A stretch of 38,911 nt of DNA, taken from assembly GCA_944323675.1 (NCBI GenBank), contig CALUTK010000014.1, forward strand, positions 1 to 38,911, read 5' to 3'. The stretch is from Candidatus Gastranaerophilales bacterium (GTDB lineage Bacteria; Cyanobacteriota; Vampirovibrionia; Gastranaerophilales; Gastranaerophilaceae). The notes beneath the pieces were generated by a model that searched no databases, was not told the origin of the DNA, and saw only the letters and a list, made by a program, of their open reading frames with translations. Position numbers and translations under genes: made by a program. Positions 4,970 through 25,320 of this stretch are shown here, one piece after another; positions within the stretch are counted from its first letter, which is position 1; every line of letters starts with the position of its first letter.

Positions 4970-5305
4970 ATTCTTTAAATGCTCTATTTTTAATTCCGGC
5001 TTGAGCGTAATCCCGATTACATCTATACGAAAATCTTTAACCTTATTTTCTGCAAGATAATACTGCACACCTTTTTTGATATTTTCAAATTTTGTCCGCG
5101 TAATAGCCTCCATCGGGGTTCCGTAAGAATTTGTATTCCGCGTCTTTACTTCAACAAACACAATCGTGTTTTTCTGTTTTGCTATAATATCAATTTCGCA
5201 AAAACGCGAGTAGTGCTTGTTGCGTTCCAAAATTTCATATCCGTTCCTTTTCAGGTAACGGCAGGCTAAATCTTCTCCGGCATTTCCTTTAGTTTTGTTT
5301 GTCAT
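4955..5305 (-). CDS. yraN: YraN/UPF0102 family nuclease-like protein
   Basis: A 116-residue protein of the UPF0102 family, which has a restriction-endonuclease-like fold; its biological role is unsettled. The family pattern is clear: GNAGEDLACRYLKRNGYEIL at the N-terminus, then EIDIIAKQKNTIVFVEVKTR carrying the E-x-D...E-V-K nuclease-like acidic and lysine residues, and a C-terminal FRIDVIGI. The start codon overlaps the end of queF by four bases (ATGA), so the two are translationally coupled. The family is often found near rnhB or the ribosome-maturation genes; pairing with queF is less usual. Confidence 0.92.
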   Translation of the reverse strand: MTNKTKGNAGEDLACRYLKRNGYEILERNKHYSRFCEIDIIAKQKNTIVFVEVKTRNTNSYGTPMEAITRTKFENIKKGVQYYLAENKVKDFRIDVIGITLKPELKIEHLKNVSLM

Positions 5306-10499: not shown

Positions 10500-11789
10500 T
10501 CATAACGTAATAGGCCAATAGAAATCCACAAGATATGACGCCGCATCTATCGGATGGGATAGGAATTTCAATTCCTTTGTCTGTTTTATCTGCTGGTAAC
10601 CGGGTATATCTATTTTTGAGGTACCTTCTCTATATCTGAGATTATAAATGTTATACAAAAGCTTTTCGCACTTTTTATCCACATAAAGACAAACTTCTCC
10701 TTCGGCATTTCTGATTTTGGCATTAAATGCGGCAATTCTGTTTTTTATGGGCGGATTATAGGCTTTTATTCTTATATCTGCATCATAGCCATACTGCAAA
10801 AGTTTTTTCTTTATTATTACGTAATTTGTATATTCACTCGTACAGCTTCTGTTATCGCCAGAGGCGTCACCATTTACAATAATTTTACCTTTATGGTTCG
10901 GATATCTTCTGAAAAATTCCTCGCAGGCGCCTGCTGTTGTCGTATTTTCCATTGCAATTTCATCAAAATAAAAAACTTTATCCTCCGTCTTATGCGCAAA
11001 TACCCAGCACATAGGATCAACGTTAAAGTCACACGAAATATGCAAATCCATTTCCGGCTGGTATGCGATATCTTTTACATTTTCATCTGTAAACCCTTTT
11101 ATTACAAGATTATTATTGATTTCTCCATTTTGTGCAAGAACAAAAATCCTGTAATATTCTTCGTCGTAGATTTTTTTAAGTTCGTCGCAAAAGCCTTCCG
11201 GCAGATATATATTCTGGGTTGTCGGGGCTGAAATAAGACGGTAGTTGGGGGGAGGATTATCCAGAAAAGTCTTATATATCCAACCTCTATGAAATTCCGG
11301 ATTTGTATGCCCGAAAATTCTGTAGGTAAAATTTTTCCATGATTTTTTTATCCTCTGACGCATCCTCGAAAGAAGCACCTTAAAAGTTTCATACGGAACT
11401 TCAGACATTTCTTCAATTTCCACAAAACCGAGGTTGAGAGATTTAAGCTTATTCGGTTCGTCAAAATGTCTGAAAAGAATTTCCGAGCCGTTTTGAAAAG
11501 TCATTTTTTGTAAAGATGATGACCATTCGTAATCAACACCTTCAACAAACCCTATATTATCCAAATGTTCAAAATACGATTGGAGAGTGGTATCGCGGAC
11601 CAGAGTGTAAGTTTGCGCACCGACTAAACCTCTCACACCCGGATATTTAAGAGCGAGCAAAATTCCAAGAAGCGACCCTGCAAAGGTTTTTCCGGAACCA
11701 TACCCGCCCTGATATACAGCAACGTCTAGCGTATAACTATGCGGAATCTCCAAAAATTCCCGCTGAGACTTCAATAACTTATATTCCAT
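10500..11789 (-). CDS. Phage terminase large subunit
   Basis: The DNA-packaging motor and nuclease that pumps and cuts DNA at the portal. The 429-residue product has an ATPase with Walker A YGSGKT (residues 30-35), Walker B GFVEIEEMS (about 122-130) and a coupling motif near GHTNPEF (161-167). The RNase H-like nuclease carries acidic residues in SCDFNVDP (Asp255), VNGDASGD (Asp309) and HPIDAASYLVD near the C-terminus. All expected catalytic acids appear present, so the enzyme looks intact. The gene follows the portal gene after a 230-base gap containing hairpins, and precedes a small membrane-protein gene. In most phages TerL precedes portal; here it follows. Confidence 0.93.
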   Translation of the reverse strand: MEYKLLKSQREFLEIPHSYTLDVAVYQGGYGSGKTFAGSLLGILLALKYPGVRGLVGAQTYTLVRDTTLQSYFEHLDNIGFVEGVDYEWSSSLQKMTFQNGSEILFRHFDEPNKLKSLNLGFVEIEEMSEVPYETFKVLLSRMRQRIKKSWKNFTYRIFGHTNPEFHRGWIYKTFLDNPPPNYRLISAPTTQNIYLPEGFCDELKKIYDEEYYRIFVLAQNGEINNNLVIKGFTDENVKDIAYQPEMDLHISCDFNVDPMCWVFAHKTEDKVFYFDEIAMENTTTAGACEEFFRRYPNHKGKIIVNGDASGDNRSCTSEYTNYVIIKKKLLQYGYDADIRIKAYNPPIKNRIAAFNAKIRNAEGEVCLYVDKKCEKLLYNIYNLRYREGTSKIDIPGYQQIKQTKELKFLSHPIDAASYLVDFYWPITL

Positions 11790-11862
11790 ATTTTTAATCT
11801 TTTCCTAATCCTGCCCGATATTCTTGTACTGCACTGCAATACAGACTCGTTTCATAATGAAA

Positions 11863-11884
11863 AAGTCATTCCGAAGAATGACTT
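11863..11884 (-). terminator. Intrinsic terminator between portal and terL
   Basis: AAGTCATT (11863-11870) and AATGACTT (11877-11884) form an 8-bp stem with a CTTCGG-like tetraloop region on the minus strand, followed by U5. It could reduce read-through from the portal gene into terL, in which case terL needs its own promoter in the 70 bases that follow. Confidence 0.75.
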
Positions 11885-11973
11885 ATAGATTGGATTTTCG
11901 CATTTTTTGATTATACAACAAAAGATTCTGATAATTAAATAGCCATAAGGCTATAAATTTTATTCAAGGGAAA

Positions 11974-12012
11974 GTGCCGCAAAATAAGGAGGAAAAAGAG
12001 GGAATGCGGCAC
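11974..12012 (-). other. Hairpin just after the portal stop codon
   Basis: GTGCCGCA (11974-11981) and TGCGGCAC (12005-12012) make a perfect 8-bp GC-rich stem with a 23-base loop, eight bases beyond the portal stop. There is no U-tract on the minus strand, so it may be an mRNA stabiliser. A second small palindrome (AGCC/GGCT at 11941-11952) lies just downstream. Confidence 0.55.
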
Positions 12013-12019
12013 AGAAAAA

Positions 12020-13672
12020 CTAATTACCCGTATCTTTCAGAAAATTATTGGCGTTTTCGATTCCGTACTGTTCAAGTGCAAATTTGAAGCATTCCAGCCA
12101 GTCAACCTGCTCTGCTACACTCTGTACTTCCGCAAAAGATTTGACAACTTCAAAAAGTTCCTTCAGTCTTGTTTTTCTCTCAAAGCTTGCCTTTCTGTCT
12201 CCATAGCGGTATATATAATTTGAATTTCTGACATCATCACTAATTCTGTCAAAAACATATTTGCCGTGATCTTCTATTCTGATAAGTTCATCACCGAATT
12301 TAAAGTTTGCGATAATTTCGGCGGTTTTTTCAACCATAGGGATAATAATTTTGCGGTTAATTGCATCAAGCATCATATTAAGCCGCGCTTCCTGGCCGCT
12401 TACCGAATAATTCAATTCTGTTGCGGTCCGCTGAACATCCTGTAAATTTCCAGCCATATTTTTGAAAATTCCGGTTGCACTTTCAGTTGTCGCTTTAAAA
12501 TAATTAAGAAAATCCCATCCCTGCATAGCTTTATCAAAACTTATCGGGGTTGGTGCTGTCGGCATTAAGGCTGCATCATATTCAATAATCTTGCCCGGCC
12601 TTACATCCTGCTGGCCTTTAAAACAGCCTTTCGGCGCAAGGTACGGCGGATTAATCATCAAGGCAAGCGCATCAATTTGTTTATTCAAAATGGTTGATGA
12701 AACATTATTCAAGACAAGCGCCACTTTTAAAGGAGAAATTCCTCTGCCTGTTACTGGACTTTCAATTATATTTGCGTGAATAAACGGGTTTATAACAAAT
12801 GGATTTGCTTCAAATCTTATAATTTCCCGTCTGCCGGCAACAGTTACAAGGCGATTTCTTAAAATTTTACCGTCCGAAAGTTCTATATCGCCCCAGAATT
12901 CCAGAATCTCAAGTTTATTTTCGTCAATTCCTTTTTCATCGTTCCTGTTCTTTTTCTTTGCCACCACTCCTTTCAGTTTTTCCAGTTTTTCTTTATTCAA
13001 GAGGTTGTTTGATTTATCGCAGAATATTTCGTCAATAGTTGCATAGGTTCTATAGATTTTTGCACAACTGTCCCACTTATCGCGGTTTGATTTATCAAAC
13101 ACAAAATCTTCAGCTTTTATGAATTTAACCCTTGCGTTGTCGTAAACGACTTTATCTTCCAGCACAAAAGTTTTGCCGTCGGGGTTTTTCATATCTTCTT
13201 CAATTGTTTTTGCGCGGCGGGTTTGTTTTATAACGGTTTCCCAGCCGATAAAAAGAGTGCATTCGCCGGTTTCAACAATACTATCAATAACTTTTTCCAA
13301 TTCGTTTTCAATATTCATCTGTTCAAAAGTGTTGACAAGCATGGCTTTTTGTTTATTGGCGTAAGCTTGAGTCTGCGGGGTTGTTCCGGAGACATCGAAC
13401 ATGGCATCCGGATGGGAGTATAAATTTTCGCTTATGTGGGATTTTAAGGTTTGTGCAAGTTCGTAGATATCCGGAAGCTCTATTTTACTCCCCCAGCCGT
13501 TAACGTTCTGGCTTGCGGGGTTATATATTGCATCCCGAACAAGTTTTATATCCGTAAGCTGCTGTATACGGTAATCTTCAAACCTGTCATATTTTTCAGA
13601 AATTTCATTAACCAGAAGAATTTCATCCTCCGGCTTTATCTCGAGTGTTAAATCATCATTAGTTATTTCCAT
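12020..13672 (-). CDS. Phage portal protein (podovirus-like)
   Basis: The dodecameric ring at one capsid vertex through which DNA passes and to which the tail attaches. The 550-residue product has the usual order: an acidic N-terminal region, a wing domain with IVETGECTLFIGWE (around 135-148), a crown/wing segment with VFDKSNRDKW, a stem/clip segment with ESPVTGRGISPLKVALVLNN (around 300-320) and a C-terminal helical region with Gln-rich VQRTATELNYSVSGQEA. This pattern matches portals of short-tailed phages. The gene follows a 380-base repeat-filled gap after the GNAT gene. A ribosome site AAAGG lies about nine bases before the ATG. It appears intact. Confidence 0.88.
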   Translation of the reverse strand: MEITNDDLTLEIKPEDEILLVNEISEKYDRFEDYRIQQLTDIKLVRDAIYNPASQNVNGWGSKIELPDIYELAQTLKSHISENLYSHPDAMFDVSGTTPQTQAYANKQKAMLVNTFEQMNIENELEKVIDSIVETGECTLFIGWETVIKQTRRAKTIEEDMKNPDGKTFVLEDKVVYDNARVKFIKAEDFVFDKSNRDKWDSCAKIYRTYATIDEIFCDKSNNLLNKEKLEKLKGVVAKKKNRNDEKGIDENKLEILEFWGDIELSDGKILRNRLVTVAGRREIIRFEANPFVINPFIHANIIESPVTGRGISPLKVALVLNNVSSTILNKQIDALALMINPPYLAPKGCFKGQQDVRPGKIIEYDAALMPTAPTPISFDKAMQGWDFLNYFKATTESATGIFKNMAGNLQDVQRTATELNYSVSGQEARLNMMLDAINRKIIIPMVEKTAEIIANFKFGDELIRIEDHGKYVFDRISDDVRNSNYIYRYGDRKASFERKTRLKELFEVVKSFAEVQSVAEQVDWLECFKFALEQYGIENANNFLKDTGN

Positions 13673-14053
13673 TTTTTCTAACCTTTCATATTTTTTTCAC
13701 AAAGATAAATAATGTTAATAAAAAATCCAACGCCAATTTAGAAGCCTAGAATTGTAGAATGCCGCGACTTTGCGATTGCGGGTCACAGCCCGCAATGACG
13801 AGTTACCCCTCCACCCTAGCCCTCAGCACAAGGCATACAGAGTCGTAAGACTCGTTACCTCGTCTGCACCCTTTGTATCCCTCAAGGGGGAGAGGGTGAA
13901 TAGTAGACACGGCATTGCGAGCGACAGCGAAGCAATCCAGCCTTTTAACACGTGAAAAGTGAAGTGAATAATTTTTTATTGAACCTTTCACTCCTCACCA
14001 CTCACTATTCACTTAATTGCACTTATTATCCTAAGGGGTTTCCACTTAGTGCC
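13673..14053. repeat. Intergenic repeat mosaic between GNAT and portal genes
   Basis: No credible gene; short frames here encode repeat sequence only. Left to right it holds a palindromic unit GATTGCGGGTCACAGCCCGCAATGACG (about 13775-13799 for its core), a CCCTC-rich unit with a TCGTAAGACTCG palindrome and CCCTCAAGGGGGAGAGGG (about 13805-13897), the unit CATTGCGAGCGACAGCGAAG + CAATCCAG (13913-13940), and a degenerate TTCACTCCTCACC-type run to 14015. The same modules recur near 15720, 21700-22230, 28130-28880 and 35600-35780. It interrupts the particle operon without disrupting any gene. Confidence 0.75.
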
Positions 14054-14575
14054 TTACAGTGCATCGATCAGAGAATAAACAACAATATCCTGAGGTTTTC
14101 CGCCGCGCATTGTCTCTGACTTAAGCCGCGCTTCTTTTATAAATCCGCATCTGTTTAAAAGACTTACAATCCTGAAATTCTCCGGATAAATAAGCGCTTT
14201 AACTTTTTTAAGCCCGAGGTTTTGAAAACAGTAATTAAAAAATACAATCGCAGCATAATAAGTAAAAGAACCCCAAAACTTTTTATCAAAACAGGTCGTA
14301 ACCTCTGCGCAATGAAGTTTTTCAGAATTCCCCGTAAATTTTTCAAGATAAACAAATCCCGCCGCCTCATCGTCAGAAAATATTACCCAGAAATAGGGCG
14401 AAGCTTCTTCCACTAAATCAAGGAAATAATCGTAGAAATTCCGCCCGTCAAGTGCAAAATCGTCCGCTAAAAATTTCTTATACCGGCGGTAGAGAAACAT
14501 CATCTGCGGAATATATTCCGTATTTTTGTAATAATTATTTTTGCGGTCTACAATAAGCTGTCTAAATTTCAACAT
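14054..14575 (-). CDS. GNAT family N-acetyltransferase
   Basis: 173 residues with the GNAT fold: a beta-alpha core where TTCFDKKFWGSFTYYAAIVF precedes the acetyl-CoA pocket region, then the characteristic KKVKALIYPENFRIVSLLNR + CGFIKEARL (beta5-alpha4-beta6) near the C-terminus. Substrate unknown. GNAT genes are found among the head and packaging genes of several podoviruses. The start overlaps the preceding small gene by 14 bases (ATGTTGAAATTTAG), so translation is coupled and the enzyme belongs to the particle operon. Confidence 0.85.
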   Translation of the reverse strand: MLKFRQLIVDRKNNYYKNTEYIPQMMFLYRRYKKFLADDFALDGRNFYDYFLDLVEEASPYFWVIFSDDEAAGFVYLEKFTGNSEKLHCAEVTTCFDKKFWGSFTYYAAIVFFNYCFQNLGLKKVKALIYPENFRIVSLLNRCGFIKEARLKSETMRGGKPQDIVVYSLIDAL

Positions 14576-14924
14576 CTATCTTCTCAAACTTTACATATGC
14601 GTCATCGGTTGTGAATGAGCCGAGTTCACCTTTCAGTATTTTTTCTCTTACAGAATTTTGAATACCTAGCATTGCCTCAGCCTGAACTCCGTTCACAAAT
14701 GTTTCAGACTTATTATTTCTGTTGAATACTCTAAATACCGAATATTTTGAAAAAATTAAATTCTTCGGAACTTTTGAAATATCTGTTATGGTTTTTCGTT
14801 TGTGTTTTTTATTTGCATTGTTAAGTGCAGTTTTAAATTCTTTTTCAATTTTCATCTTTATAAGATCGTCTAAAGACGCGTTGGTTAATAATATTTGTTC
14901 AATATCTTCTTCTTTTTCTTTCAT
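14562..14924 (-). CDS. Small hypothetical protein of the particle operon
   Basis: 120 residues, charged and probably soluble. An acidic helical N-terminus (MKEKEEDIEQILL) leads to a basic centre (NANKKHKRKTITDISKVP) and a C-terminal part with NGVQAEAMLGIQNSVREKIL. No family is recognised. It begins with a good AGAAAGGA ribosome site and overlaps the GNAT gene by 14 bases. Its place between terS and GNAT suggests a virion or packaging accessory; nothing in the sequence shows a specific job. Confidence 0.72.
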   Translation of the reverse strand: MKEKEEDIEQILLTNASLDDLIKMKIEKEFKTALNNANKKHKRKTITDISKVPKNLIFSKYSVFRVFNRNNKSETFVNGVQAEAMLGIQNSVREKILKGELGSFTTDDAYVKFEKIDVEI

Positions 14925-14960
14925 AGTTTTCCTTTCTGTTTAACTATATAATCTGCCTGG

Positions 14961-15039
14961 AAACTTTTGCTTATTTGTTTTCGAAACGATAGCGGGAGCA
15001 GGGCGGAAGCGTGTTGAGAAAATAAATAAGCAAAGGTTT
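14961..15039. repeat. 21-bp imperfect inverted repeat in the terS downstream gap
   Basis: The left arm AAACTTTTGCTTATTTGTTTT (14961-14981) pairs with AAAATAAATAAGCAAAGGTTT (15019-15039), with only two mismatches or wobbles, around a 37-base GC-rich centre. It lies between the terS stop and the next gene on the minus strand, so it would be an extended hairpin in the operon mRNA. It might also be a tiny mobile element. No U-tract follows. Confidence 0.65.
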
Positions 15040-15072
15040 GAACACAATAGTAAGGTAGCCCGTTTATAACGT

Positions 15073-15504
15073 TTAAATTTTACTGTCATCAAGATTTGAT
15101 ATAGTAATAATTTTTGCAGGCTTATAACCTTCTTCAAGCTTTGAATTAAACCCGAGGTATTTGCATAAGCTTTCTAGTGCTTTCAGGGCGGCTGATGTAT
15201 CACGGAGTTTTCTTTTGCCTGTAAAATTTCCCTCCTTATCCGTAATATCTTCTTCTTCCAGCGAAAATTCTGCTATTTTAAGAAGTTTCTGGATAACATA
15301 GCCTTTTTCCACGCGCAGAGATTTTATATGGGCATTAAGACGGATTTTCATTTCTTTGATAATCAACTCATCCGCAAGAAGCCTTTCCGCCGTATCTTTT
15401 AAATTTTTGGATTTATATCCTGCATTACGGGCTGCAGCTTCGCCGTCTACGGTTTTTATATATTCGTCAATAAATGTTTTTTGTTGCTGGGTTAATCGTT
15501 TCAT
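15073..15504 (-). CDS. Phage terminase small subunit
   Basis: The DNA-recognition subunit of the packaging terminase. The 143-residue product matches the Terminase_2 pattern: LTQQQKTFIDEYIKTVDGEA at the N-terminus, an HTH with AARNAGYKSKNLKDTAERLL (about residues 23-42), a central oligomerisation helix and the typical C-terminal RDTSAALKALESLCKYLGFN. No clear Shine-Dalgarno precedes the ATG; a TAATAAT/TATAAA tract lies directly upstream. It is separated from the adaptor gene by 422 bases that contain a candidate divergent small RNA, and it is not adjacent to terL, which is unusual. Confidence 0.9.
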   Translation of the reverse strand: MKRLTQQQKTFIDEYIKTVDGEAAARNAGYKSKNLKDTAERLLADELIIKEMKIRLNAHIKSLRVEKGYVIQKLLKIAEFSLEEEDITDKEGNFTGKRKLRDTSAALKALESLCKYLGFNSKLEEGYKPAKIITISNLDDSKI

Positions 15505-15536
15505 TGTTTATAATTATTAAGATTTCTTACTAAAAT

Positions 15537-15565
15537 TTGTATTTTTGAGGACTATGTGCTATAAT
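15537..15565 (+). promoter_or_regulatory. Strong plus-strand promoter divergent from terS
   Basis: TTGTAT (15537-15542), a 17-base spacer, then an extended -10 TGC-TATAAT (TATAAT at 15560-15565). The predicted start is about 15571-15573. No plus-strand protein gene lies downstream, and an intrinsic terminator follows within 70 bases. Confidence 0.65.
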
Positions 15566-15570
15566 AAACA

Positions 15571-15638
15571 TGCTATTTATATTTCGGCTAGTGTAAATCT
15601 TAACAGGGGGGAATGAAAAATAACTTCCTGTTTTTTTT
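15571..15638 (+). ncRNA. Candidate small RNA (about 68 nt) inside the particle block
   Basis: Downstream of a near-consensus promoter, the predicted transcript contains a 7-bp hairpin (ATTTATA 15575-15581 with TGTAAAT 15592-15598, loop TTTCGGCTAG). It ends in an intrinsic terminator (AACAGG 15602-15607 with CCTGTT 15627-15632, then T8 to 15638 counting from 15631). It runs opposite to all surrounding genes. A 32-codon frame beginning inside the terminator is not taken as coding. Possible roles are a regulatory RNA or a packaged/immunity RNA; nothing here identifies a target. Confidence 0.55.
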
Positions 15639-15926
15639 GCGGATTTGCACTCTGCAGAACAATTGTATTGAAAGAGTGATGGCAGGGAAATACGTATTTC
15701 TGCGAACGTAAAACGTCATTCCGGAAGCGTAGAAAAACTAATTGAGACGAATGTCGAAATCTTGTTTTTCAAGCTATGCGGAATCGCATTATTTTGGACG
15801 CAACGATTATGCGATTGCGGCTCATAGCCCGCAATGACGTTACAAAAGAAATACACAGCACTATTAAGGTCATACTCAACATATCTGTTAAAACCAAATA
15901 ATTCATATTACGGCAAGAGTGGGGGA
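15639..15926. repeat. Intergenic repeat module near terS
   Basis: No protein gene. About 15716-15842 is one copy of a composite repeat. It starts CGTCATTCCGGAAGCGTAGA, continues through AAGCTATGCGGAATCG and ends GCGATTGCGGCTCATAGCCC + GCAATGACG. A close relative lies at about 28230-28360. The two ends (CGTCATT / AATGACG) are inverted, as in palindromic or MITE-like repeats. Confidence 0.65.
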
Positions 15927-16565
15927 TTAGTGTCTGTGCATCCTTATCTCAGGGGTATAATCAGCATTAATACCTGACTTTGACCGCAAATTTGCTAATG
16001 CATCCCGATACATTGACATCCAGTAACTAAACCTTATGTGCTGCGGATTTCCCTTTAATCTCATACACGCGCCGTATACAAGAACCGGCTCCGCAAACGC
16101 CTCAGGGATTACGGACATATCAGTGTCATTTTCAAATAAAGTTTTTTCAGTTCCGTCGGCACTCTTTACAAAATTAGACGTATAATAATATATTTCTGCA
16201 GTCTGCGCTTTCTCAAACTGTGGAAATAAAAATTTATCATTGAATAATGAAAAAGAATTTGACGGATTTGAATTTGTTAAAAACTTTTCGTAATCCTCAA
16301 TAAATCTATACTTTTTCCCGTCAATAAAAATGGAATCTATTTTACCCTCTACGGAATTAGTTATCTCTGTAACATCCGCCGGAATTGTCAATTCGGTTTT
16401 TCTAAGAAGAAAATTCCAGTTTTCGGAATTGCAAATTTCCGTATTTAAAATATTTAAAATATTTTTAATCTTTAAATGCTCATTCTTTGTCAATTCGCTA
16501 AAAGCATGCACCTGCTTGTAATTGAGTTCAACAAGGCATTTATTTATTAAATCAAAATAATTCAT
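15927..16565 (-). CDS. Putative head-tail adaptor (connector) protein
   Basis: 212 residues, mainly helical at both ends. The N-terminal YFDLINKCLVELNYKQVHAF, a middle with the EITNSVEGKIDSIFIDGKKY beta segment, and the C-terminal FAEPVLVYGACMRLKGNPQH are typical of gp4/gp11-type head-completion adaptors of short-tailed phages. The assignment rests on this general pattern plus position beside scaffold, capsid and packaging genes, so the subfamily is uncertain. AAGGAG lies before the ATG. The gene starts 26 bases beyond an extensive palindrome that separates it from scaffold. Confidence 0.65.
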   Translation of the reverse strand: MNYFDLINKCLVELNYKQVHAFSELTKNEHLKIKNILNILNTEICNSENWNFLLRKTELTIPADVTEITNSVEGKIDSIFIDGKKYRFIEDYEKFLTNSNPSNSFSLFNDKFLFPQFEKAQTAEIYYYTSNFVKSADGTEKTLFENDTDMSVIPEAFAEPVLVYGACMRLKGNPQHIRFSYWMSMYRDALANLRSKSGINADYTPEIRMHRH

Positions 16566-16579
16566 ATCATCTCCTTTTG

Positions 16580-16626
16580 CCGTAACCTCAGGCGGTCTTA
16601 TAGAATAAGACCGCCAAAAATTACGG
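16580..16626. other. Two-tiered palindrome between scaffold and adaptor genes
   Basis: CCGTAA (16580-16585) pairs with TTACGG (16621-16626), and inside it GGCGGTCTTA (16591-16600) pairs with TAAGACCGCC (16606-16615). The two stems are separated by a symmetric 5x5 internal loop, and the terminal loop is five bases. Neither strand has a U-tract after the stem. It may be an RNase III-type processing or stability element in the operon mRNA, or a protein-binding site in DNA. Confidence 0.7.
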
Positions 16627-16639
16627 ATAATTTGCGCAA

Positions 16640-17290
16640 TTATTTAATCAAGCCTTTACGGAGCTGTTCCATAATCGCTTTTTCATACTTTGCAAATTCT
16701 GCACCACTCATTTTGCCGATTTGCTCACGGGTGAAAGCCCTTGTTTTCATATCGTCAAAATTAGAGTTTTGCGCATTTGCACGTAATCTCTGTTTTGCGA
16801 TTTCGTTTTCGTCATTTAATGACTTTTCGTGAGCGGTTTGTTTTAAATACCTTCTGATTGCGCCATCCTCAAGCTTTTCAATCATTTGAGATATTAAGGA
16901 AATTTCTTCCTTATCACCGTCAAAGCCTGAGCGTTTCAGGTAATCTAAGACCTCTGCCCTGCCGTCTTTATTAAAAAATCCGGAATGTTCAGCTTCAAAC
17001 TCTGCAAATGCATCTGATTTCGGCTGAATTTGAGCAACGCCTCTATTCTGGTTGTTCACCATGTCATACGCCTTATTTATTACATAGTTCACTAAATATT
17101 GTCCTTGCGTATTGTCTATAACGCCGCTATCTACAAGCTGTTGAATCTTGCGTATATCGTGTAAGACAATACTTTGTACATCATAACTTAGAGGCGGGTT
17201 TTGTAAACTTCCTGTCTGCTGCGGGATTTGACGATTATCGGCAGAAGATAATCCCCCGTTAATAATATTTTGCATATTTTGATTATTCAT
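16640..17290 (-). CDS. Putative capsid scaffolding protein
   Basis: 216 residues, hydrophilic and almost wholly helical. It has a disordered Asn/Gln-rich N-terminus (MNNQNMQNIINGG), central helices (HDIRKIQQLVDSGVI) and a charged C-terminal helix ending KGLIK; a positively charged helical C-terminus is typical of internal scaffolds that bind coat protein. The segment FAEFEAEHSGFFNKDGRAEV also occurs in phage scaffold-like proteins. The start at 17290 is chosen because GGAG precedes it by six bases, and it overlaps the holin-like gene by eight bases. Function is inferred from character and position next to the capsid gene. Confidence 0.65.
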   Translation of the reverse strand: MNNQNMQNIINGGLSSADNRQIPQQTGSLQNPPLSYDVQSIVLHDIRKIQQLVDSGVIDNTQGQYLVNYVINKAYDMVNNQNRGVAQIQPKSDAFAEFEAEHSGFFNKDGRAEVLDYLKRSGFDGDKEEISLISQMIEKLEDGAIRRYLKQTAHEKSLNDENEIAKQRLRANAQNSNFDDMKTRAFTREQIGKMSGAEFAKYEKAIMEQLRKGLIK

Positions 17291-17543
17291 AAGTTTCTCC
17301 ATGTGTTTTTTGATTCAAGGAATTCATGTAATCAACGGCGAATTCAATTGAATCATCAATAAATCCTGACAAAAGGATTGCAATAAAGCTGCGAAAAATT
17401 GCAGGCACCGGAAGTTTTGAGGTAACGTAGTCAATTGCCATTTTCTTCTTCTCCTGACCTCTGGAACTTCCGAGCGCTTTTTCCGCTATTGCAACCGCAC
17501 TTTGCGCTAACTGTTTAATTGCATCTTTTAAGTGTTTGAACAT
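17283..17543 (-). CDS. Small phage protein, possibly holin-like
   Basis: 86 residues. A helical N-terminus (MFKHLKDAIKQLAQSAVAIA) and a basic stretch (SSRGQEKKKMAIDYV) lead to a hydrophobic segment (PVPAIFRSFIAILLSGFID, about 50-68). The GQEKKKMAIDYV pattern faintly recalls the C-terminal part of LLH-type holins, but a clear N-terminal membrane span is missing, so this is tentative. It has a good AAAGGA ribosome site, follows the capsid terminator and overlaps the scaffold start. It could equally be a minor head protein. Confidence 0.55.
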   Translation of the reverse strand: MFKHLKDAIKQLAQSAVAIAEKALGSSRGQEKKKMAIDYVTSKLPVPAIFRSFIAILLSGFIDDSIEFAVDYMNSLNQKTHGETYE

Positions 17544-17557
17544 ATTTTTCCTTTCTT

Positions 17558-17641
17558 AAAAAAGTACCCTTAAACCGCTCGGGCTAAATCTGCAAAACAC
17601 AGAAAAAGAAAGAGTTTTTACAAAGATTTAAAGGTACTTTT
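17558..17641 (-). terminator. Long-stem terminator after the capsid gene
   Basis: The distant segments AAAGTACC..TTTAAA (about 17627-17641 read on the minus strand) and TTTAAGGGTACTTTTTT (17558-17574) pair over about 14 bp with one mismatch, enclosing a loop of about 50 bases and ending in U6. It lies 18 bases after the capsid stop, so it should end much of the capsid transcript while allowing some read-through to the holin-like and scaffold genes. Confidence 0.65.
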
Positions 17642-17658
17642 CGGGGTTACACAAAGGC

Positions 17659-18582
17659 TTAACCTGTAGGTTCTGTTGCGTCGGTAGGTTCCGTAGGTTC
17701 TGTCGGAGATGTCGGCGCAGAGGTTTCATTAGATTTTACAACCATTTTTGCAAGCGCTTTCGGCTGAACTGTTTTTGCTCCGTACAAATATAAGCCTCTG
17801 ATTAAATCAGAAAAACTGTCTTTATCGCGTAAGCTTTCGATTTTTGCTAATTGGGATGCAAACGTAATAGCATCGTTTGTACCAGCAAGAACATAGTATT
17901 TGCCTGATACATCAGTAAGGTTTGTGCTGACAAGAACATCCATGCCCGCAATTCTTCCGATGGCTCCTTCTCTCAAAGTCTCATCGGCAACGTTATGTGC
18001 GCCGATGAATTCCGAACTTTGCAGCAAGTAAGATTCAATAGTCGGGTTAATCACAACCCAAGGTCGTTTAGCGGCAGATACCGCGTTTGAATTTTTCAAA
18101 CATAATGCAAGTTTTACAAACTGAGAGTAAATTGTTGTTTTATCAAGAGTAATCGGAGAAGAATCAGACCCGACAACATTTGCAGAATCAACGTAAGCAT
18201 GCTGGGATAAAAGGTAAGCGTCCTGAACTTCTTCAATAGCTTTTTTAGCGTTTTCAAGGTGTGCTTCCATAATATCGGTATTAGATTGAACCTGCGCCAC
18301 ATCATTGATTTTGAAAGCAAAGAATTTTTTCTGGTCAATAATCAAATCGGTCGCAGTAGGTTCTAATTCATCATAAGTAATATTACCGCTTCCTACTGTT
18401 GCAACGCTTACGGCGGCAGGTGTAATAATTTTTACCGAATCACCCTGATTTTTAATTTCCCCTTCCCAGTTTCTGTTTACGCACTGAAGCATTACGCATT
18501 CTTTCTGAAGCATGGAATTCAATTTCTGGCTCCAGATTTCAGGAATAAAAGCAGAGTAAGAATTTGATGTGTTTGTGCTCAT
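17659..18582 (-). CDS. Major capsid protein
   Basis: 307 residues forming the head shell, with the HK97-like coat pattern: an N-terminal arm (FIPEIWSQKLNSMLQKECVM), E-loop/P-domain strands (GDSVKIITPAAVSVATV and TYDELEPTATDLIIDQKKFF), a helical spine (DIMEAHLENAKKAIEEVQDA) and an A-domain (PWVVINPTIESYLLQ and GRIAGMDVLVSTNL). The sequence is compact for a podovirus coat. The C-terminus is unusual: about 20 residues of Thr/Pro/Glu repeats (PTSPTEPTEPTDATEPTG) form a likely disordered, possibly surface-exposed tail. A good AGAAAGGA ribosome site is present. The gene is followed by its own long-stem terminator. Confidence 0.9.
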   Translation of the reverse strand: MSTNTSNSYSAFIPEIWSQKLNSMLQKECVMLQCVNRNWEGEIKNQGDSVKIITPAAVSVATVGSGNITYDELEPTATDLIIDQKKFFAFKINDVAQVQSNTDIMEAHLENAKKAIEEVQDAYLLSQHAYVDSANVVGSDSSPITLDKTTIYSQFVKLALCLKNSNAVSAAKRPWVVINPTIESYLLQSSEFIGAHNVADETLREGAIGRIAGMDVLVSTNLTDVSGKYYVLAGTNDAITFASQLAKIESLRDKDSFSDLIRGLYLYGAKTVQPKALAKMVVKSNETSAPTSPTEPTEPTDATEPTG

Positions 18583-18633
18583 AAATTTTTGTCCTTTCTG
18601 TTAGATTTATAATAAAAAGATTTGAGTGGTGCC

Positions 18634-20154
18634 TTAGTCATCGTTATAGATTTCGCGGAACTGAAGTCCGATAATCGCACAGGATTCATCAGCGGCAGAA
18701 CCGCTTATACATAATTGAACGGAATAGTTAGATTCGGAAATTTCGGCTTTTTCAAGAGTATCTGCATTTATAGGCCAGATAGGAATATCTTCATCATCCT
18801 TCGCCCAGTGGCAGGGAAGTGAATCCGGCGTATTATCATCCGCCCACATTAAATGGTCATAGTGCATTGAATAAATTTTTTCGGCATCATCGGGATACTC
18901 GCTGTCATAATCTTTGTACACAGTAAAATCAAAATTATTATCATACGATTCATCAAGAATAAAATAAAATTCATCTATAAGTTTTCTGTGATGGATTGAC
19001 CCGAGCGCGAGAAACGGAGATTTCCACATAAATTTTATCGGTTCTCCGGCGAATGTACTGCCGTAATCTTCCCGGTAGATTTTACCGTCAGAATCCGCAG
19101 CAAGAATGTAATCATTAAACATACAAGCACAGGTGATATTCTGCGGAACAACCCTTTTGTACCACGATTTATTTACATAATCGTTTATCCAAATTTTATG
19201 GAAATAATCATCATCATTGTAAGGCAGAAAATACCATACCTGATTTCTGTTTTCATAATGCAGGCTTATAGCCTCTGACATTCTGACTTTATTAAAACTT
19301 TTGAATTCTTCTGTTATATTTTTTGAAATTTCAGACCCCAATTGTATCTGGTTTAATTCGCCGACCTGCTCAAGCGCAAAAATACCGGTATTGAGAAAGT
19401 ACTGTTTATTTTCAACATTAACAATACTTCTCGGGGAATACGCACCCTTATTTGCAAAAGGCACGATAGCAAAATCATCTTCACTCATACCTGTCAGAAG
19501 ATACACTTCTGACTTTTTATAGATTGCGAGATAATCTTTATAAGTTTTGAGTGCCGTAATTTCATCGGTGTTAGTATAGAAATTTCTGATATAACCAGCA
19601 TCCCCGGTTGTTGTGAAATCATCGTAAGTTCCCAGAGCCGAATAATAAATAACAGCACCCGAAGCGACCCAGACTCGTCCGTTATAAACACAGATAACAG
19701 CACTACAGACAGGTTCTCCGCTGTCGTTTTTTAGATTGCACTCTACAACCTCGTTACTGTCATTATTTTTGATATAAAACAATGTGTCCGATTTACTTGA
19801 AACCAGCACTCCGTCCAAAAATGCGGCAAAAACAGGATTAGAGCCGGTTACAGTTTTATCAAGCTTAGTCAAATCCTGACTCTGGTAATTATAAATATAA
19901 ATTTTACCTGAAATTGTAGTAATAACGAGTTTTAAACGTGTACCGCTGCGCATTTCAAACATTCCTGTTACCGCTTCATTTACAGGAAGTTCAAGAAAAA
20001 GAGTGTTACCATTCTGCTTAATTATGCCGCGGTTTTGTAAAATCTCAACGTTTTCCGAATCTGTCCAGTAAAGTTTTTTGGTATCGCTGCCGAGTTCTGT
20101 TTTGGTTAACGCCTGATTAATACCGCCTGACAGGTTATAGTAGGAAACTTCCAT
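18634..20154 (-). CDS. Phage tail hub / stabilisation protein (P22 gp10-like)
   Basis: 506 residues, nearly all beta, with repeated blade-like units: GMFEMRSGTRLKLVITTISG, VFAAFLDGVLVSSKSDTLFY, AVICVYNGRVWVASGAVIYY and ALKTYKDYLAIYKKSEVYLL. Such a propeller-like pattern beginning with YYNLSGGINQ is typical of the P22 gp10-type tail accessory proteins that cap the portal channel of podoviruses. It supports a short-tailed particle with no tape measure protein. The start has AAGGAG just before it, located within the end of the amidase gene (gap of three bases). Confidence 0.78.
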   Translation of the reverse strand: MEVSYYNLSGGINQALTKTELGSDTKKLYWTDSENVEILQNRGIIKQNGNTLFLELPVNEAVTGMFEMRSGTRLKLVITTISGKIYIYNYQSQDLTKLDKTVTGSNPVFAAFLDGVLVSSKSDTLFYIKNNDSNEVVECNLKNDSGEPVCSAVICVYNGRVWVASGAVIYYSALGTYDDFTTTGDAGYIRNFYTNTDEITALKTYKDYLAIYKKSEVYLLTGMSEDDFAIVPFANKGAYSPRSIVNVENKQYFLNTGIFALEQVGELNQIQLGSEISKNITEEFKSFNKVRMSEAISLHYENRNQVWYFLPYNDDDYFHKIWINDYVNKSWYKRVVPQNITCACMFNDYILAADSDGKIYREDYGSTFAGEPIKFMWKSPFLALGSIHHRKLIDEFYFILDESYDNNFDFTVYKDYDSEYPDDAEKIYSMHYDHLMWADDNTPDSLPCHWAKDDEDIPIWPINADTLEKAEISESNYSVQLCISGSAADESCAIIGLQFREIYNDD

Positions 20155-20157
20155 AGA

Positions 20158-20655
20158 TTATTCTCCTTGTATTTTTTCCTTGTACCACTTGATTTTTGCT
20201 CTGATGAATTTTCCGGCATCAAGTCTATCAACCCACGGATAAGGAGGAATAAATATTATGTCAATCTTTCCTGCACTTGATGTGGATGGATGTTTCAGAC
20301 CGAATTCATAATGGGTCATAATTGTGTTAGGATTAACCGGAATATCGTATTTAATTGACAATTTTGCACATAATTCCATACAGGCCTCAAACTGCTTTTT
20401 AGTGATCGGATAATTCCCGAGGCTTTTCCGGCTCTTAAACCCAGCCATTGCGCACATTGCAACTCCTACAGAGCCGGTGTTTCCTCCGCCGGTATGTGCA
20501 GCATAGAAACCGCTTATACACCGCAGATTATTTTCCGGTTTAAAAATTCCTTCATGGATATTACCGTCTTTATCTACCAAAAAGTGATAACATGTCTTTT
20601 CAAGGGCTGTCGGGTAATATCCGCCGGCAGTCCAATGGATAATTATTCTTTTCAT
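20158..20655 (-). CDS. N-acetylmuramoyl-L-alanine amidase (Amidase_2/PGRP type)
   Basis: A 165-residue zinc amidase that cleaves the peptide from peptidoglycan glycan strands; in this setting it is the likely endolysin or particle lysin. The Amidase_2 pattern is clear: IIIHWTAGGYYPTALEKTCY with His7 as the first zinc ligand, then YHFLVDKDGNIHEG, the segment YAAHTGGGNTGSVGVAMCAM and a second ligand in NTIMTHYEFGLKHP. There is no signal peptide, so it would need a holin for export. It starts 15 bases after the LuxR-type gene with GGAG five bases before the ATG, and abuts the tail gene, so all three share a transcript. Confidence 0.92.
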   Translation of the reverse strand: MKRIIIHWTAGGYYPTALEKTCYHFLVDKDGNIHEGIFKPENNLRCISGFYAAHTGGGNTGSVGVAMCAMAGFKSRKSLGNYPITKKQFEACMELCAKLSIKYDIPVNPNTIMTHYEFGLKHPSTSSAGKIDIIFIPPYPWVDRLDAGKFIRAKIKWYKEKIQGE

Positions 20656-20670
20656 AGCACTCCGAATTTT

Positions 20671-20886
20671 TTATACTTCATGAATGGAAATTAACCATTC
20701 AGGATGATATTTTGCGTATAACAATGCTGCATGGGTTCGGTTTCGTGCATGCATTTTTAAAACAATTTTATCAATGTAATCTCTTACTGTACTGTAAGAA
20801 ATTCTAAGTTTAAGTCCTATCTCTTTATCCGAGAAACCCAATGCTGCCAAAGTTATAACATCAGTTTCCTTTGGTGTTAGTTTCAT
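20671..20886 (-). CDS. Solo LuxR/GerE-type HTH regulator
   Basis: 71 residues consisting of only the GerE/LuxR helix-turn-helix domain: LTPKETDVITLAALGFSDKE, IGLKLRISYSTVRDYIDKIV and LKMHARNRTHAALLYAKYHP. There is no receiver, autoinducer or PAS domain. Such stand-alone domains can be activators of the adjacent operon. It is the first gene after a terminator and sits directly before the amidase-tail-capsid genes, so it probably controls them. A 7-bp inverted repeat lies in its own leader (annotated separately). Confidence 0.9.
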   Translation of the reverse strand: MKLTPKETDVITLAALGFSDKEIGLKLRISYSTVRDYIDKIVLKMHARNRTHAALLYAKYHPEWLISIHEV

Positions 20887-20899
20887 ACCCTCTTCCTCA

Positions 20900-20918
20900 C
20901 TGAAATTACTTATTTCAG
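20900..20918 (-). promoter_or_regulatory. Inverted repeat, possible operator in the LuxR-type gene leader
   Basis: CTGAAAT-AAGTA-ATTTCAG on the minus strand (arms 20900-20906 and 20912-20918) is a perfect 7-bp palindrome 14 bases before the ATG at 20886. A TG-TATTAT -10-like element (minus strand, about 20935-20945) is upstream. The palindrome may bind the LuxR-type protein (autoregulation) or fold in the mRNA leader. The assignment is inferred. Confidence 0.45.
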
Positions 20919-21013
20919 CTATTCCGGTTCTTGATAAAATAATACAAAAAGAATAATCGCCACATGGTTATTTTTTTAATAATAATTCCTAATTAAATTT
21001 TTATTAATAAAAA

Positions 21014-21034
21014 GGGATGAAATAATTTCATCCC
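21014..21034 (-). terminator. Terminator of the zinc-ribbon gene
   Basis: GGGATGAAA (21014-21022) and TTTCATCCC (21026-21034) form a perfect 9-bp stem with a 3-base loop followed by U5 on the minus strand, 18 bases after the stop codon. It makes the LuxR-type operon a separate transcription unit. Confidence 0.88.
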
Positions 21035-21051
21035 GCAGAGAGTAAGATAAT

Positions 21052-21438
21052 TTAAAAGGATGGTAGATTATTCAGATTTTTATTTTCATACAAACCGATT
21101 TTTAAGGTACTAAGATTTGAATAGCATCTTTTTTTAACGCCGAATTCATTGTAATTCAGATAAAATCTGCCTTGACCGAACTTAGGCAGTTGAGGCGGAA
21201 CTTCTTCGTACAAAATAAACTTTTGTACGGATTGGAAAAATTTTTTTGCTTTATTATTAACTTTCCTGACTGTAGAAATCTCGTCATTGAAATCAATTCT
21301 GGTAAGCTGAACAACGAAATGACCGCACACCGGACATTTTTTAAGCACATCAAGTTCACACAGCCGAAAGTTCTCCCGCGGGACAAGACAATAAGACCTT
21401 GTCTTACGCAGGGCGCCGCAGCAATGTATATATCCCAT
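21052..21438 (-). CDS. Cys-rich (zinc-ribbon-like) hypothetical protein
   Basis: 128 residues with a cysteine-rich N-terminal half: an HCC near residue 5 (MGYIHCCGALRKTRSYC), then CELDVLKKCPVCGHFVVQL with a CxxC pair, which should bind zinc. The C-terminal part (RKVNNKAKKFFQSVQKFILY and GQGRFYLNYNEFGVKKRCYS) is basic and could contact nucleic acid. No family is recognised. The ATG at 21438 has GAGG ten bases before it; a GTG two codons upstream (21444) is an alternative. It has its own terminator. The gene's leader contains a long structured RNA ending in a U-tract. Confidence 0.68.
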   Translation of the reverse strand: MGYIHCCGALRKTRSYCLVPRENFRLCELDVLKKCPVCGHFVVQLTRIDFNDEISTVRKVNNKAKKFFQSVQKFILYEEVPPQLPKFGQGRFYLNYNEFGVKKRCYSNLSTLKIGLYENKNLNNLPSF

Positions 21439-22260
21439 ACACACAAAACCTCTTCCCTGAGACTTATTTCGGCAAACAGCTTTACCATCAACGGGCTTGA
21501 GCCTTAACCGATTACATATTCAGTATAACGTATTTTGAAAATAAAAAAAGACGCCATTTCAATCGCCATGAAAATACCCCCTTGTTTTCATGGGTAAGCT
21601 TCGTGGCATTGAGTGAAATAGCTGTTAGGATAATAAGACAATAAGTGAAATAAAAATGTGAAGTGTGAAGAGGGGTGAAGGATTTTACCTCTCTCCCTGC
21701 GGGAGAGGGGTAGGGGGGAGGGGGCAGTTAAAAGATATTAAGATACTAAGGTGAAATTTTACGTCATTCTGAGGGCAAAGCCCGAAAGAATCCAGCTTTA
21801 TTATAGTGAAGGGTGATGGGTGATGGGTGAGTGGTTCAATAATAATAAATCCATTCACGCTTCACACCTCACGCTTCACGTTTCCAAAAGCTGGATTGCT
21901 TCTTCCCGCTCGCAATGACACTCCCACCCTCGCCCCTTGAGGGAGAGGGAAGAATTTGTTAATGAGCGTGAGCGAATTTACAAATTCGGGTGAGGGGTGA
22001 ATAAAAGTGAGTGGAGAAAGGGCTTTTGCGAGAAAACTCTCCGGCGCATACGCGCCACCTCCCTTACGAAGGGAGGCTTTAATTTACACCCTCTCACTAC
22101 GGGATAGGGAAAAAGAAAAAAGCCTTTCAACTATTCATCCGTTCAACTTTTCAACTAAACTGCCCCTTCACTCCTCACACTTCACTCCTCACGTTCCAAA
22201 AGCTGGATTGCTTCTTCCCGCTCGCAATGACAAAACGTTAAGGCATCACAGAAACCGCAG
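21439..22260. repeat. Repeat mosaic between the particle block and the radical SAM gene
   Basis: 822 bases without a credible gene; the frames here encode repeat sequence. It holds a structured RNA candidate near 21543-21622. After that come a CCTCTCCCTGCGGGAGAGGG palindrome (about 21696-21717), a variant CGTCATTCTGAGGGCAAAGC unit (from 21763), degenerate TTCACACCTCACG runs, and minus-strand copies of the CATTGCGAGCG...GAAGCAATCCAGC unit at about 21892-21918 and 22204-22230. A 91-base module at 21907-21997 recurs inverted at 28683-28773. A CCTCCCTTCGTAAGGGAGG module is inverted around 22035-22078. Confidence 0.7.
21543..21622 (-). ncRNA. Candidate structured RNA / attenuator upstream of the zinc-ribbon gene
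   Basis: On the minus strand GCTATTT (21622-21616) pairs with AAATGGC (21559-21553), CAATGCC pairs with GGCGATTG (one bulged base), and ATGAAAA pairs with TTTTCAT around a CAAGGGGGTA loop. The three stems stack into one long bulged hairpin that ends in U7 (plus-strand A run 21543-21549). It could be a stand-alone small RNA or a leader attenuator for the gene starting 105 bases downstream. An alternative pairing of the loop GGGUA with upstream UACCC would disrupt the top stem. Confidence 0.5.
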
Positions 22261-24237: not shown

Positions 24238-25320
24238 ATGAAAGATATGCTAGACAAAATATTACAAATAGAAAAGAAATATAAAGAGCTTGGAGAAACT
24301 CTCTCAGATCCTGCTGTAATTCAGGATTACAAAAAATTCAGAGATTTATCTAAACAGAGAAAATCAATGGAGGAAACGGTTAACCTTTATTATGAATGGA
24401 AAAAGGCAACCGATGCAATAGCTGACGCAAAAGAAATGCTTCATTCAGAACACGATGAAGAAATGAAAGCGTTAATAAAAGCTGAAATTGAAGAAAATGA
24501 AGCAAAAATTCCTCAATTTGAAGAACAGATGAAAATATTATTGCTGCCGCGCGACCCGATGGACGACAAAGATATTATGCTTGAAATCCGCGGCGGTGCA
24601 GGCGGAGATGAGGCAAACATCTTTGCCGGAGATTTAGCAAGAATGTATATGAGATACGCTGATAAACAGGGCTGGCAGACTCAGGTGTTGAGTAAAACCG
24701 AATGCGAAGCAGGCGGCGTATCAGAAATAATTATTTCCATAAAAGGCGACGCTGTATATTCAAGATTAAAATACGAATCAGGCGTCCACAGAGTTCAGAG
24801 GGTTCCGGCAACAGAATCTCAAGGCAGAGTTCACACCTCAACTGCAACCGTTGCTGTTATGCCGGAGGTTGATGACGTTGAAATCGAACTCAACATGAAC
24901 GATATAGAAATCACAACAGCCCGCTCGGGCGGCGCAGGCGGTCAGAACGTAAACAAGGTTGAAACAGCCGCCCGTGTATTCCACAAACCGACCGGAATTA
25001 TGATTTTCTGTACAGAAGAACGTTCCCAGCTGCAAAACAAAGAACGCGCACTCCAAATCTTGAAAGCAAAACTTTATGATATGGAAGTGCAAAAACAAAT
25101 GCAGGAAATCACCGACCTTCGCCGTTCACAGGTCGGAACCGGAGACCGAAGCGAACGTATCAGAACATACAACTTCCCGCAGGGAAGATTAACCGACCAC
25201 AGGATTAACCACAACCTTAACGTCTGGACGGTAATCGACGGGGATTTGGATGAACTGATAAAACTCCTTATGGAATACGACCAGAAATTAAAACTGGAAA
25301 AACTGGCAGAAGTAAGTTAG
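24238..25320 (+). CDS. prfA: Peptide chain release factor 1
   Basis: A class I release factor that recognises UAA and UAG stop codons and triggers peptide hydrolysis. The 360-residue product is family length. It contains the PAT-type codon-recognition region (around [12 protein letters not shown]) and the catalytic GGQ loop in [19 protein letters not shown] (about 225-245), with the C-terminal [20 protein letters not shown] typical of RF1. Start at 24238 (MKDMLDKIL); a second ATG three codons later is possible. The -10 box sits directly before the ATG. It is followed after nine bases by ylxR and then infB, so this unit links termination and initiation factors. Confidence 0.96.

Follow-up and report, generated by a model that had tools for sequence, protein, structure and literature searches.

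The Gastranaerophilales, gut-dwelling relatives of cyanobacteria, carry a small RNA gene that is strongly conserved and belongs to no known family. In the window (the whole 38,911-nt stretch of DNA analysed, contig 14 of a 1.81-Mb draft genome of 82 contigs that is 95.5% complete) it lies inside a phage-derived cassette and runs opposite to the packaging operon, with a promoter and terminator of its own. Such a gene, of about 67-69 nt, had been proposed from the letters of the window (hereafter the sequence-only reading), and its conservation in the host family bears the proposal out. We are highly confident that the gene is real, and its signals suggest that it is transcribed. The RNA probably acts in trans. 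The fullest explanation that we can offer, held at somewhat less than even confidence, is a trans-acting, family-wide small RNA which pairs through its core and has prepilin mRNAs as its best predicted targets. With this finding, a small RNA of strong conservation becomes known from a large group of gut bacteria. The finding also suggests that the host lineage can keep one gene of a phage-derived cassette after the phage genes vanish. If the prepilin link is true, the RNA would be aimed at a codon string for a protein motif common to dozens of genes.

Promoter, hairpins and terminator of the small RNA gene

The features of the locus are collected in Table 1. It can be seen that the elements described by the sequence-only reading, namely TTGTAT separated by 17 nt from TGC-TATAAT, a hairpin and a terminator with eight T, are all present as described. 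The earlier statement that no plus-strand protein gene lies nearby also holds: none that is convincing was found between 8359 and 24238, where the open reading frames are at most 161 aa long and mostly overlap minus-strand genes.

Table 1. Features of the small RNA locus and the surrounding cassette, in positions of the window
Feature	Position	Strand	Remarks
-35 element TTGTAT	15537-15542	+	TTG part conserved in form A copies, remainder weak
-10 element TATAAT, TGC before it	15560-15565	+	at least 5/6 matches in 164/164 distinct copies
Small RNA gene, ~67-69 nt	15570-15638	+	conserved in host family; start placed at 15570-15572 by inference
5' hairpin	15575-15598	+	loop UCGGCU 15584-15589; inner stem 15579-15583 with 15590-15594
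Near-invariant 16-nt core	15582-15597	+	antisense to FTLAE codons of type IV prepilins; candidate pairing region
Intrinsic terminator	15602-15638	+	stem-loop 15602-15632, eight T 15631-15638
Phage-derived cassette enclosing the RNA gene	10500-21444	-	Pfam, PHROGs, synteny
Terminase small subunit (terS)	15073-15504	-	Pfam PF03592, 4e-15
SU10-like adaptor / tail protein	15927-16565	-	Pfam below its cut-off; phrog_6013

The fold predicted for 15572-15640 consists of two hairpins at -15.6 kcal/mol (z -2.5; 5 of 200 shuffles were equally good). A consensus scan of the window gave 21 promoter-like sites where 14.1 were expected and 4 terminator-like sites where 4.1 were, and it listed neither the TATAAT promoter nor the terminator of the small RNA. 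The promoter was missed because its -35 element matches TTGACA at only three of six positions, the terminator because its loop is above the limit of the scan. Judged from the single sequence, the promoter and terminator signals are within chance; it is conservation among relatives (identity, -10 box and core 16-mer) that carries them beyond it.

Copies of the gene from related genomes fall into five forms (A to E). A total of 176 distinct copies was collected, and a terminator ending in a T run was recognized by pattern in 164 of them, which were kept for the counts; most of the 12 dropped copies have a shorter or interrupted T run. The -10 element matches at five or more of six positions in all 134 copies of form A and in all 30 other copies, and the TTG of the -35 element is conserved with it. 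The best spacer between the two elements is 17 nt in 99 of the 134 form A copies, the distance from the -10 element to the core is nearly fixed, and the median length of the RNA is 68 nt. The first 28 nt fall into eight types; the 5' core is near-invariant while the flanks vary among copies. The sequence of the terminator stem is wholly different between lineages (AACAGG/CCTGTT, CGAGGG/CCCTCG, GCAAGTT/AACTTGC or GCTTATC/GATAAGC, and GGGG/CCCC in form E), yet it remains a stem with T behind it.

In the 5' hairpin, the five pairs of the inner stem can form in all 19 distinct cores. One-sided changes occur at four of these five pairs and pairing is kept, including through G-U; when the stem partners were slid by one to three columns as a control, they paired in 16-60% as against 100%. 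The pair count in the 19 ungapped cores speaks for the inner stem alone; its shuffle control was uninformative (395/500), and RNAalifold returned no base pair on 46 sequences. The outer pairs are complete only in form A. The inner stem and the UCGGCU loop are the part common to all five forms, apart from loops UCAGCU (L100), UUGGCU (L048) and UCGGAU (G094, G120). Core and loop together are a near-invariant candidate pairing region, which folding predicts to be accessible.

Some features next to the gene were also observed. A motif like ATTTCTTA at 15516-15533, just 5' of the -35 element, is found again in many copies of form A as well as in form E and is possibly an upstream promoter element or an activator site. 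Directly 3' of the terminator (15639-15660) begins a short sequence that has several near-identical copies at other sites in relatives, and a 13-nt inverted repeat with its arms 104 nt apart comes after it (15712-15841). A dispersed repeat may have been inserted here, ahead of the adaptor gene.

Distribution of the gene inside and outside the cassette

Of 97 genomes of the host family, 83 carry the small RNA, 74 in forms A-D and nine in form E. When 59 genomes were searched at the DNA level, 30 of the 36 family genomes among them, including that of the window, matched with 79-100% identity at E < 1e-5, and scores in the other families did not rise above noise. The core 16-mer TTTCGGCTAGTGTAAA with at most one mismatch matched in 77 of the 97 family genomes and its reversed sequence, used as a control, in none; 74 of the 77 hold the RNA gene, and the matches in G032, G084 and G115 are a prepilin or stray site. 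Form E was found with a sequence-only model of 84 positions with no base pairs, and was read in sequence in G014, G071, G090, G094, G099, G100, G116, G120 and G127. Since several of the 14 negative family genomes are congeners of positive ones, draft gaps are the likely cause of absence in some of them.

When a model search was extended to the order, 167 of 192 genomes matched at E <= 0.01. Of these, 160 belong to the host family, in which at least ten genomes gave no match. The seven outside it matched weakly (best E 4e-5) and may be antisense prepilin matches, as is the match in G060 within the family. In a pattern scan of named genomes, the matches listed were mostly MAGs named Candidatus Gastranaerophilales, Melainabacteria or Cyanobacteria, with many labelled only 'bacterium', one Fusobacterium and one Acinetobacter; the last two (L173 and L183) are RNA-carrying MAGs and probably misnamed or misbinned Gastranaerophilales. 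The small RNA was also present on 39 contigs of IMG/VR. A seeming second copy in the genome of the window, at G000:C7:1501-1532, was rejected, being a promoter-like match before another gene.

The cassette around the RNA comprises terL, portal, GNAT, o14.5, terS, adaptor, o16.6, holin, major head protein, o18.6, amidase, GerE-like HTH and o21. Many genera of the family share its gene order, and it is vertically inherited. Its genes have dN/dS of 0.02-0.20 where dS was computable (six genomes), and the nearest phage relative of its capsid is 43% identical. Neither Pfam nor PHROGs named an integrase or replication gene among the cassette proteins scanned. Single-copy, under purifying selection and with no such genes recognised, the cassette looks, from its genes, domesticated and possibly gene-transfer-agent-like. 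A GerE/LuxR-type HTH protein of 71 aa (20671-20886), conserved with the cassette, is a candidate cassette regulator. Outside the cassette, PHROG 19918 matches the host peptide chain release factor (24238-25320) over nearly its full length (E 3e-134), so that this phage family probably contains host sequence.

Capsid orthologues (at least 43% identity; matches of 20-25% were disregarded) are single-copy and occur in 48 of the 97 family genomes. The core RNA lies within 5 kb of the capsid gene in 42 of them and a form E RNA within 1.5 kb in three more, so that the RNA accompanies the capsid gene in 45 of the 48. Its presence in related cassettes agrees with the sequence-only reading. Of the remainder, G111 and G100 carry capsid and RNA on separate contigs (that with the RNA in G111 bears portal and terS), and in G115 no RNA was found. 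The association extends to the most divergent cassettes (G071, G099, G127). The RNA does not lie only beside terS, the place to which the sequence-only reading had pointed: in rearranged cassettes the RNA adjoins o18.6 (G020, G080) or portal (G111).

The core RNA is also present without a cassette capsid gene in 30 or 31 of the 97 family genomes, the count depending on G016, which has other cassette genes on the contig. At the cassette-free loci read, the neighbouring genes change between genera; those named by eye concern riboflavin, translation, phosphate transport and others. At the G128 locus (L171, about 5042-5073) the RNA is flanked by o8 and o23 and no cassette gene stands with it, and in the congeners G072 and G101 (L344, L345) the cassette, which has the RNA in its middle, is bounded by o23 and by either o8 or the end of the contig. 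The cassette may have been lost from around an RNA that stayed behind in G128, or the RNA locus may be older than the cassette; we favour the loss, because the RNA sits in the cassette interior in the congeners. In the explanation that we prefer, the small RNA works independently of the cassette that carries it. The persistence of the RNA weakens the role in packaging or lysogeny that the sequence-only reading suggested, and packaging is unlikely to be its main role.

Complementarity to prepilin starts and the rival explanations

The reverse complement of the core encodes F-T-L-A-E, the signal motif of type IV prepilins, and for this reason one-mismatch matches of the core fell antisense within prepilin genes. 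The reverse complement of form B reads R-K-V-F-T-L-A-E-T-L-I-T, and form E retains no more of the motif than L-A-E. With 34 prepilin windows as partners, forms A-D gave mean predicted duplexes of -20.0 to -22.8 kcal/mol, as compared with -11.4 to -14.2 kcal/mol for composition-shuffled RNAs (z -11 to -13.5; none of 150 shuffles as low). With form E the difference was smaller (-19.7 kcal/mol versus -15.9 for shuffles, z -4.7). Prepilin windows were also predicted to pair better than other gene starts (-19.5 versus -12.2 kcal/mol, sd 2.8). In G106 (400 kb, 365 genes) the 16 flagged prepilins crowd the top predicted targets (ranks 1, 5, 7, 8, 10, 12, 14, 17, 21, 23, 34, 44, 94, 118, 160 and 168; p = 5.6e-8) and were the sole recurrent gene class noticed there. 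By these predictions, it is unlikely that the complementarity of forms A-D arose by chance.

Other results weaken the prepilin reading, namely the lack of codon-level selection, the retention of the RNA in pilin-poor genomes and the partial match of form E. Thirty prepilins paired no better than their synonymous shuffles (-19.3 versus -19.4 kcal/mol), and the core ranked only 55th of 384 synonymous antisense sequences over 120 sites. A perfect core is present in G068, G125 and G074, with no PF07963 prepilins, and in G103, with two. Absence of PF07963 is not absence of prepilins, since a looser motif search of G074 (about 820 kb) gave one prepilin (MKKAFTLVEV..., -19.5 kcal/mol) and one doubtful match; among 375 genes of that genome (400 kb) none was flagged as a prepilin and no alternative recurrent target class was evident. 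In seven pilin-poor genomes, seven of the ten perfect matches to a 10-nt loop complement were the RNA itself and three were single matches. Conversely, neither core nor form E was found in some prepilin-rich genomes, such as G066 (30), G027 (41) and G076 (61). In favour of the prepilin reading, a prepilin peptidase gene is directly upstream of the RNA on the same strand in the four g50/g56 loci read (L165-L168), confirmed in L166 and L167 by Pfam PF06750 and PF01478; the loci are from two genera, and PF07963 detects 0-2 prepilins in the genomes concerned. The complementarity might be what selection keeps. Prepilin mRNAs are the best-supported targets, but a tentative assignment that we hold to be clearly less likely than not.

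In the preferred explanation, a sigma-70-type promoter would give an RNA of about 68 nt ended by the intrinsic terminator. This RNA would most likely act by base pairing, for which it would use the loop of the 5' hairpin together with the 3' arm (UUUCGGCUAGUGUAAA); its best predicted targets are type IV prepilin mRNAs, whose FTLAE codons are complementary to the core. Since these codons are close behind the start codon, pairing would block translation, and of many prepilin genes together. The complementarity suggests, short of proof, that the small RNA regulates pili. A bolder proposal, which we consider improbable as a whole, is that the cassette RNA has the prepilin signal motif itself as its antisense target and that a single RNA of 68 nt would thereby silence a whole paralogous family, which can reach 75 or more prepilin genes in a genome. 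The ancestral phage would have stripped its host of pili, which would have kept out competing phages that depend on pili, or prevented DNA uptake, and the host lineage would then have retained the RNA, also after loss of the cassette, as a global regulator of pili.

A trans-acting RNA might instead have another partner, either mRNAs recognized by a short seed or a protein on the UCGGCU loop, and the prepilin likeness would then be a relic or a side effect. The sharing of inner stem and loop by all five forms, the pilin-poor genomes and the absence of codon-level selection speak for such an RNA, and we regard it as a possible explanation, at clearly less than even confidence. Against it stands a complementarity in forms A-D that is far outside shuffled controls, and no gene class other than prepilins was seen to recur atop the G106 targets, nor any in G074. 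It seems distinctly unlikely that the RNA instead regulates the cassette (packaging, particle production), whether by targeting the mRNA of terS or of other cassette genes or as an antisense to the operon transcript in the terS-adaptor gap, with the outside copies as leftovers. The constancy of the RNA beside the capsid gene, even in rearranged and divergent cassettes, speaks for this, whereas leftover copies should decay, and the core persists at many different host loci without the capsid gene and alone at the cassette locus of G128.

Two further explanations dispense with a regulatory RNA. A leaderless micro-ORF (MLFIFRLV and variants) or leader peptide was considered because forms A-D mostly read NTG...TAA over eight codons at the expected transcription start. 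It is largely refuted and hardly credible, as form E is without a stop at that position and the first letter varies among A, T, G and C; moreover, substitutions preserve the stem, and no convincing same-strand gene follows for 8 kb in the window. On the same grounds (form E without a stop, no convincing plus-strand gene downstream for 8 kb) the leader peptide/attenuator class was rejected. A conserved DNA element, such as an operator or origin-like site that merely resembles a promoter with a terminator, could in principle account for the conservation. We consider this very improbable: the -10 box, the start distance and the T-run terminator are kept while stem sequences change completely, and stem pairs are kept through G-U, which makes sense only in RNA.

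Relation to known systems

Rfam 15 gave no match at the gathering threshold for the whole window, and a more permissive search of 15450-15720 yielded nothing beyond a PreQ1 match (E 2.5) on the opposite strand, ascribed to chance. Literature searches found no paper describing the RNA by title or abstract start. The packaging RNA of phi29 type resembles it in being encoded near packaging genes. That known phage packaging RNA is much longer and is among the Rfam families, whereas the present RNA has no Rfam match and is kept without packaging genes. For the same reasons, no Rfam match and retention without the cassette capsid gene, a structural RNA of the packaging motor, also raised by the sequence-only reading, finds little support.

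Short regulatory RNAs conserved across a wide bacterial group are known in Yfr1 and Yfr2 of cyanobacteria, and the synteny of Yfr2 is reported not to be conserved (PMC2662882), as for the present RNA, which differs in being without any Rfam match. The svsR RNA of E. coli NC101 is reported to be a prophage-encoded small RNA that alters host surface functions (PMC12803456). It is likewise a small RNA on a phage element, and it differs in being found in lambdoid prophages of Enterobacteriaceae; the present RNA is family-wide and outlives its cassette. The cis-antisense class, to which PilR belongs, was rejected for the present RNA, which lies between terS and the adaptor gene with no prepilin gene overlapping it. 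PilR of Synechocystis is reported to be an antisense RNA to a prepilin mRNA that exerts negative control of pili, and so is a precedent, from a cyanobacterium, for control of this kind; it is encoded opposite pilA11 and acts in cis (PMC5924778). Both RNAs are antisense to prepilin mRNA, PilR by study and the present RNA by prediction; the present RNA is encoded elsewhere and would reach many prepilin genes through a short shared motif only.
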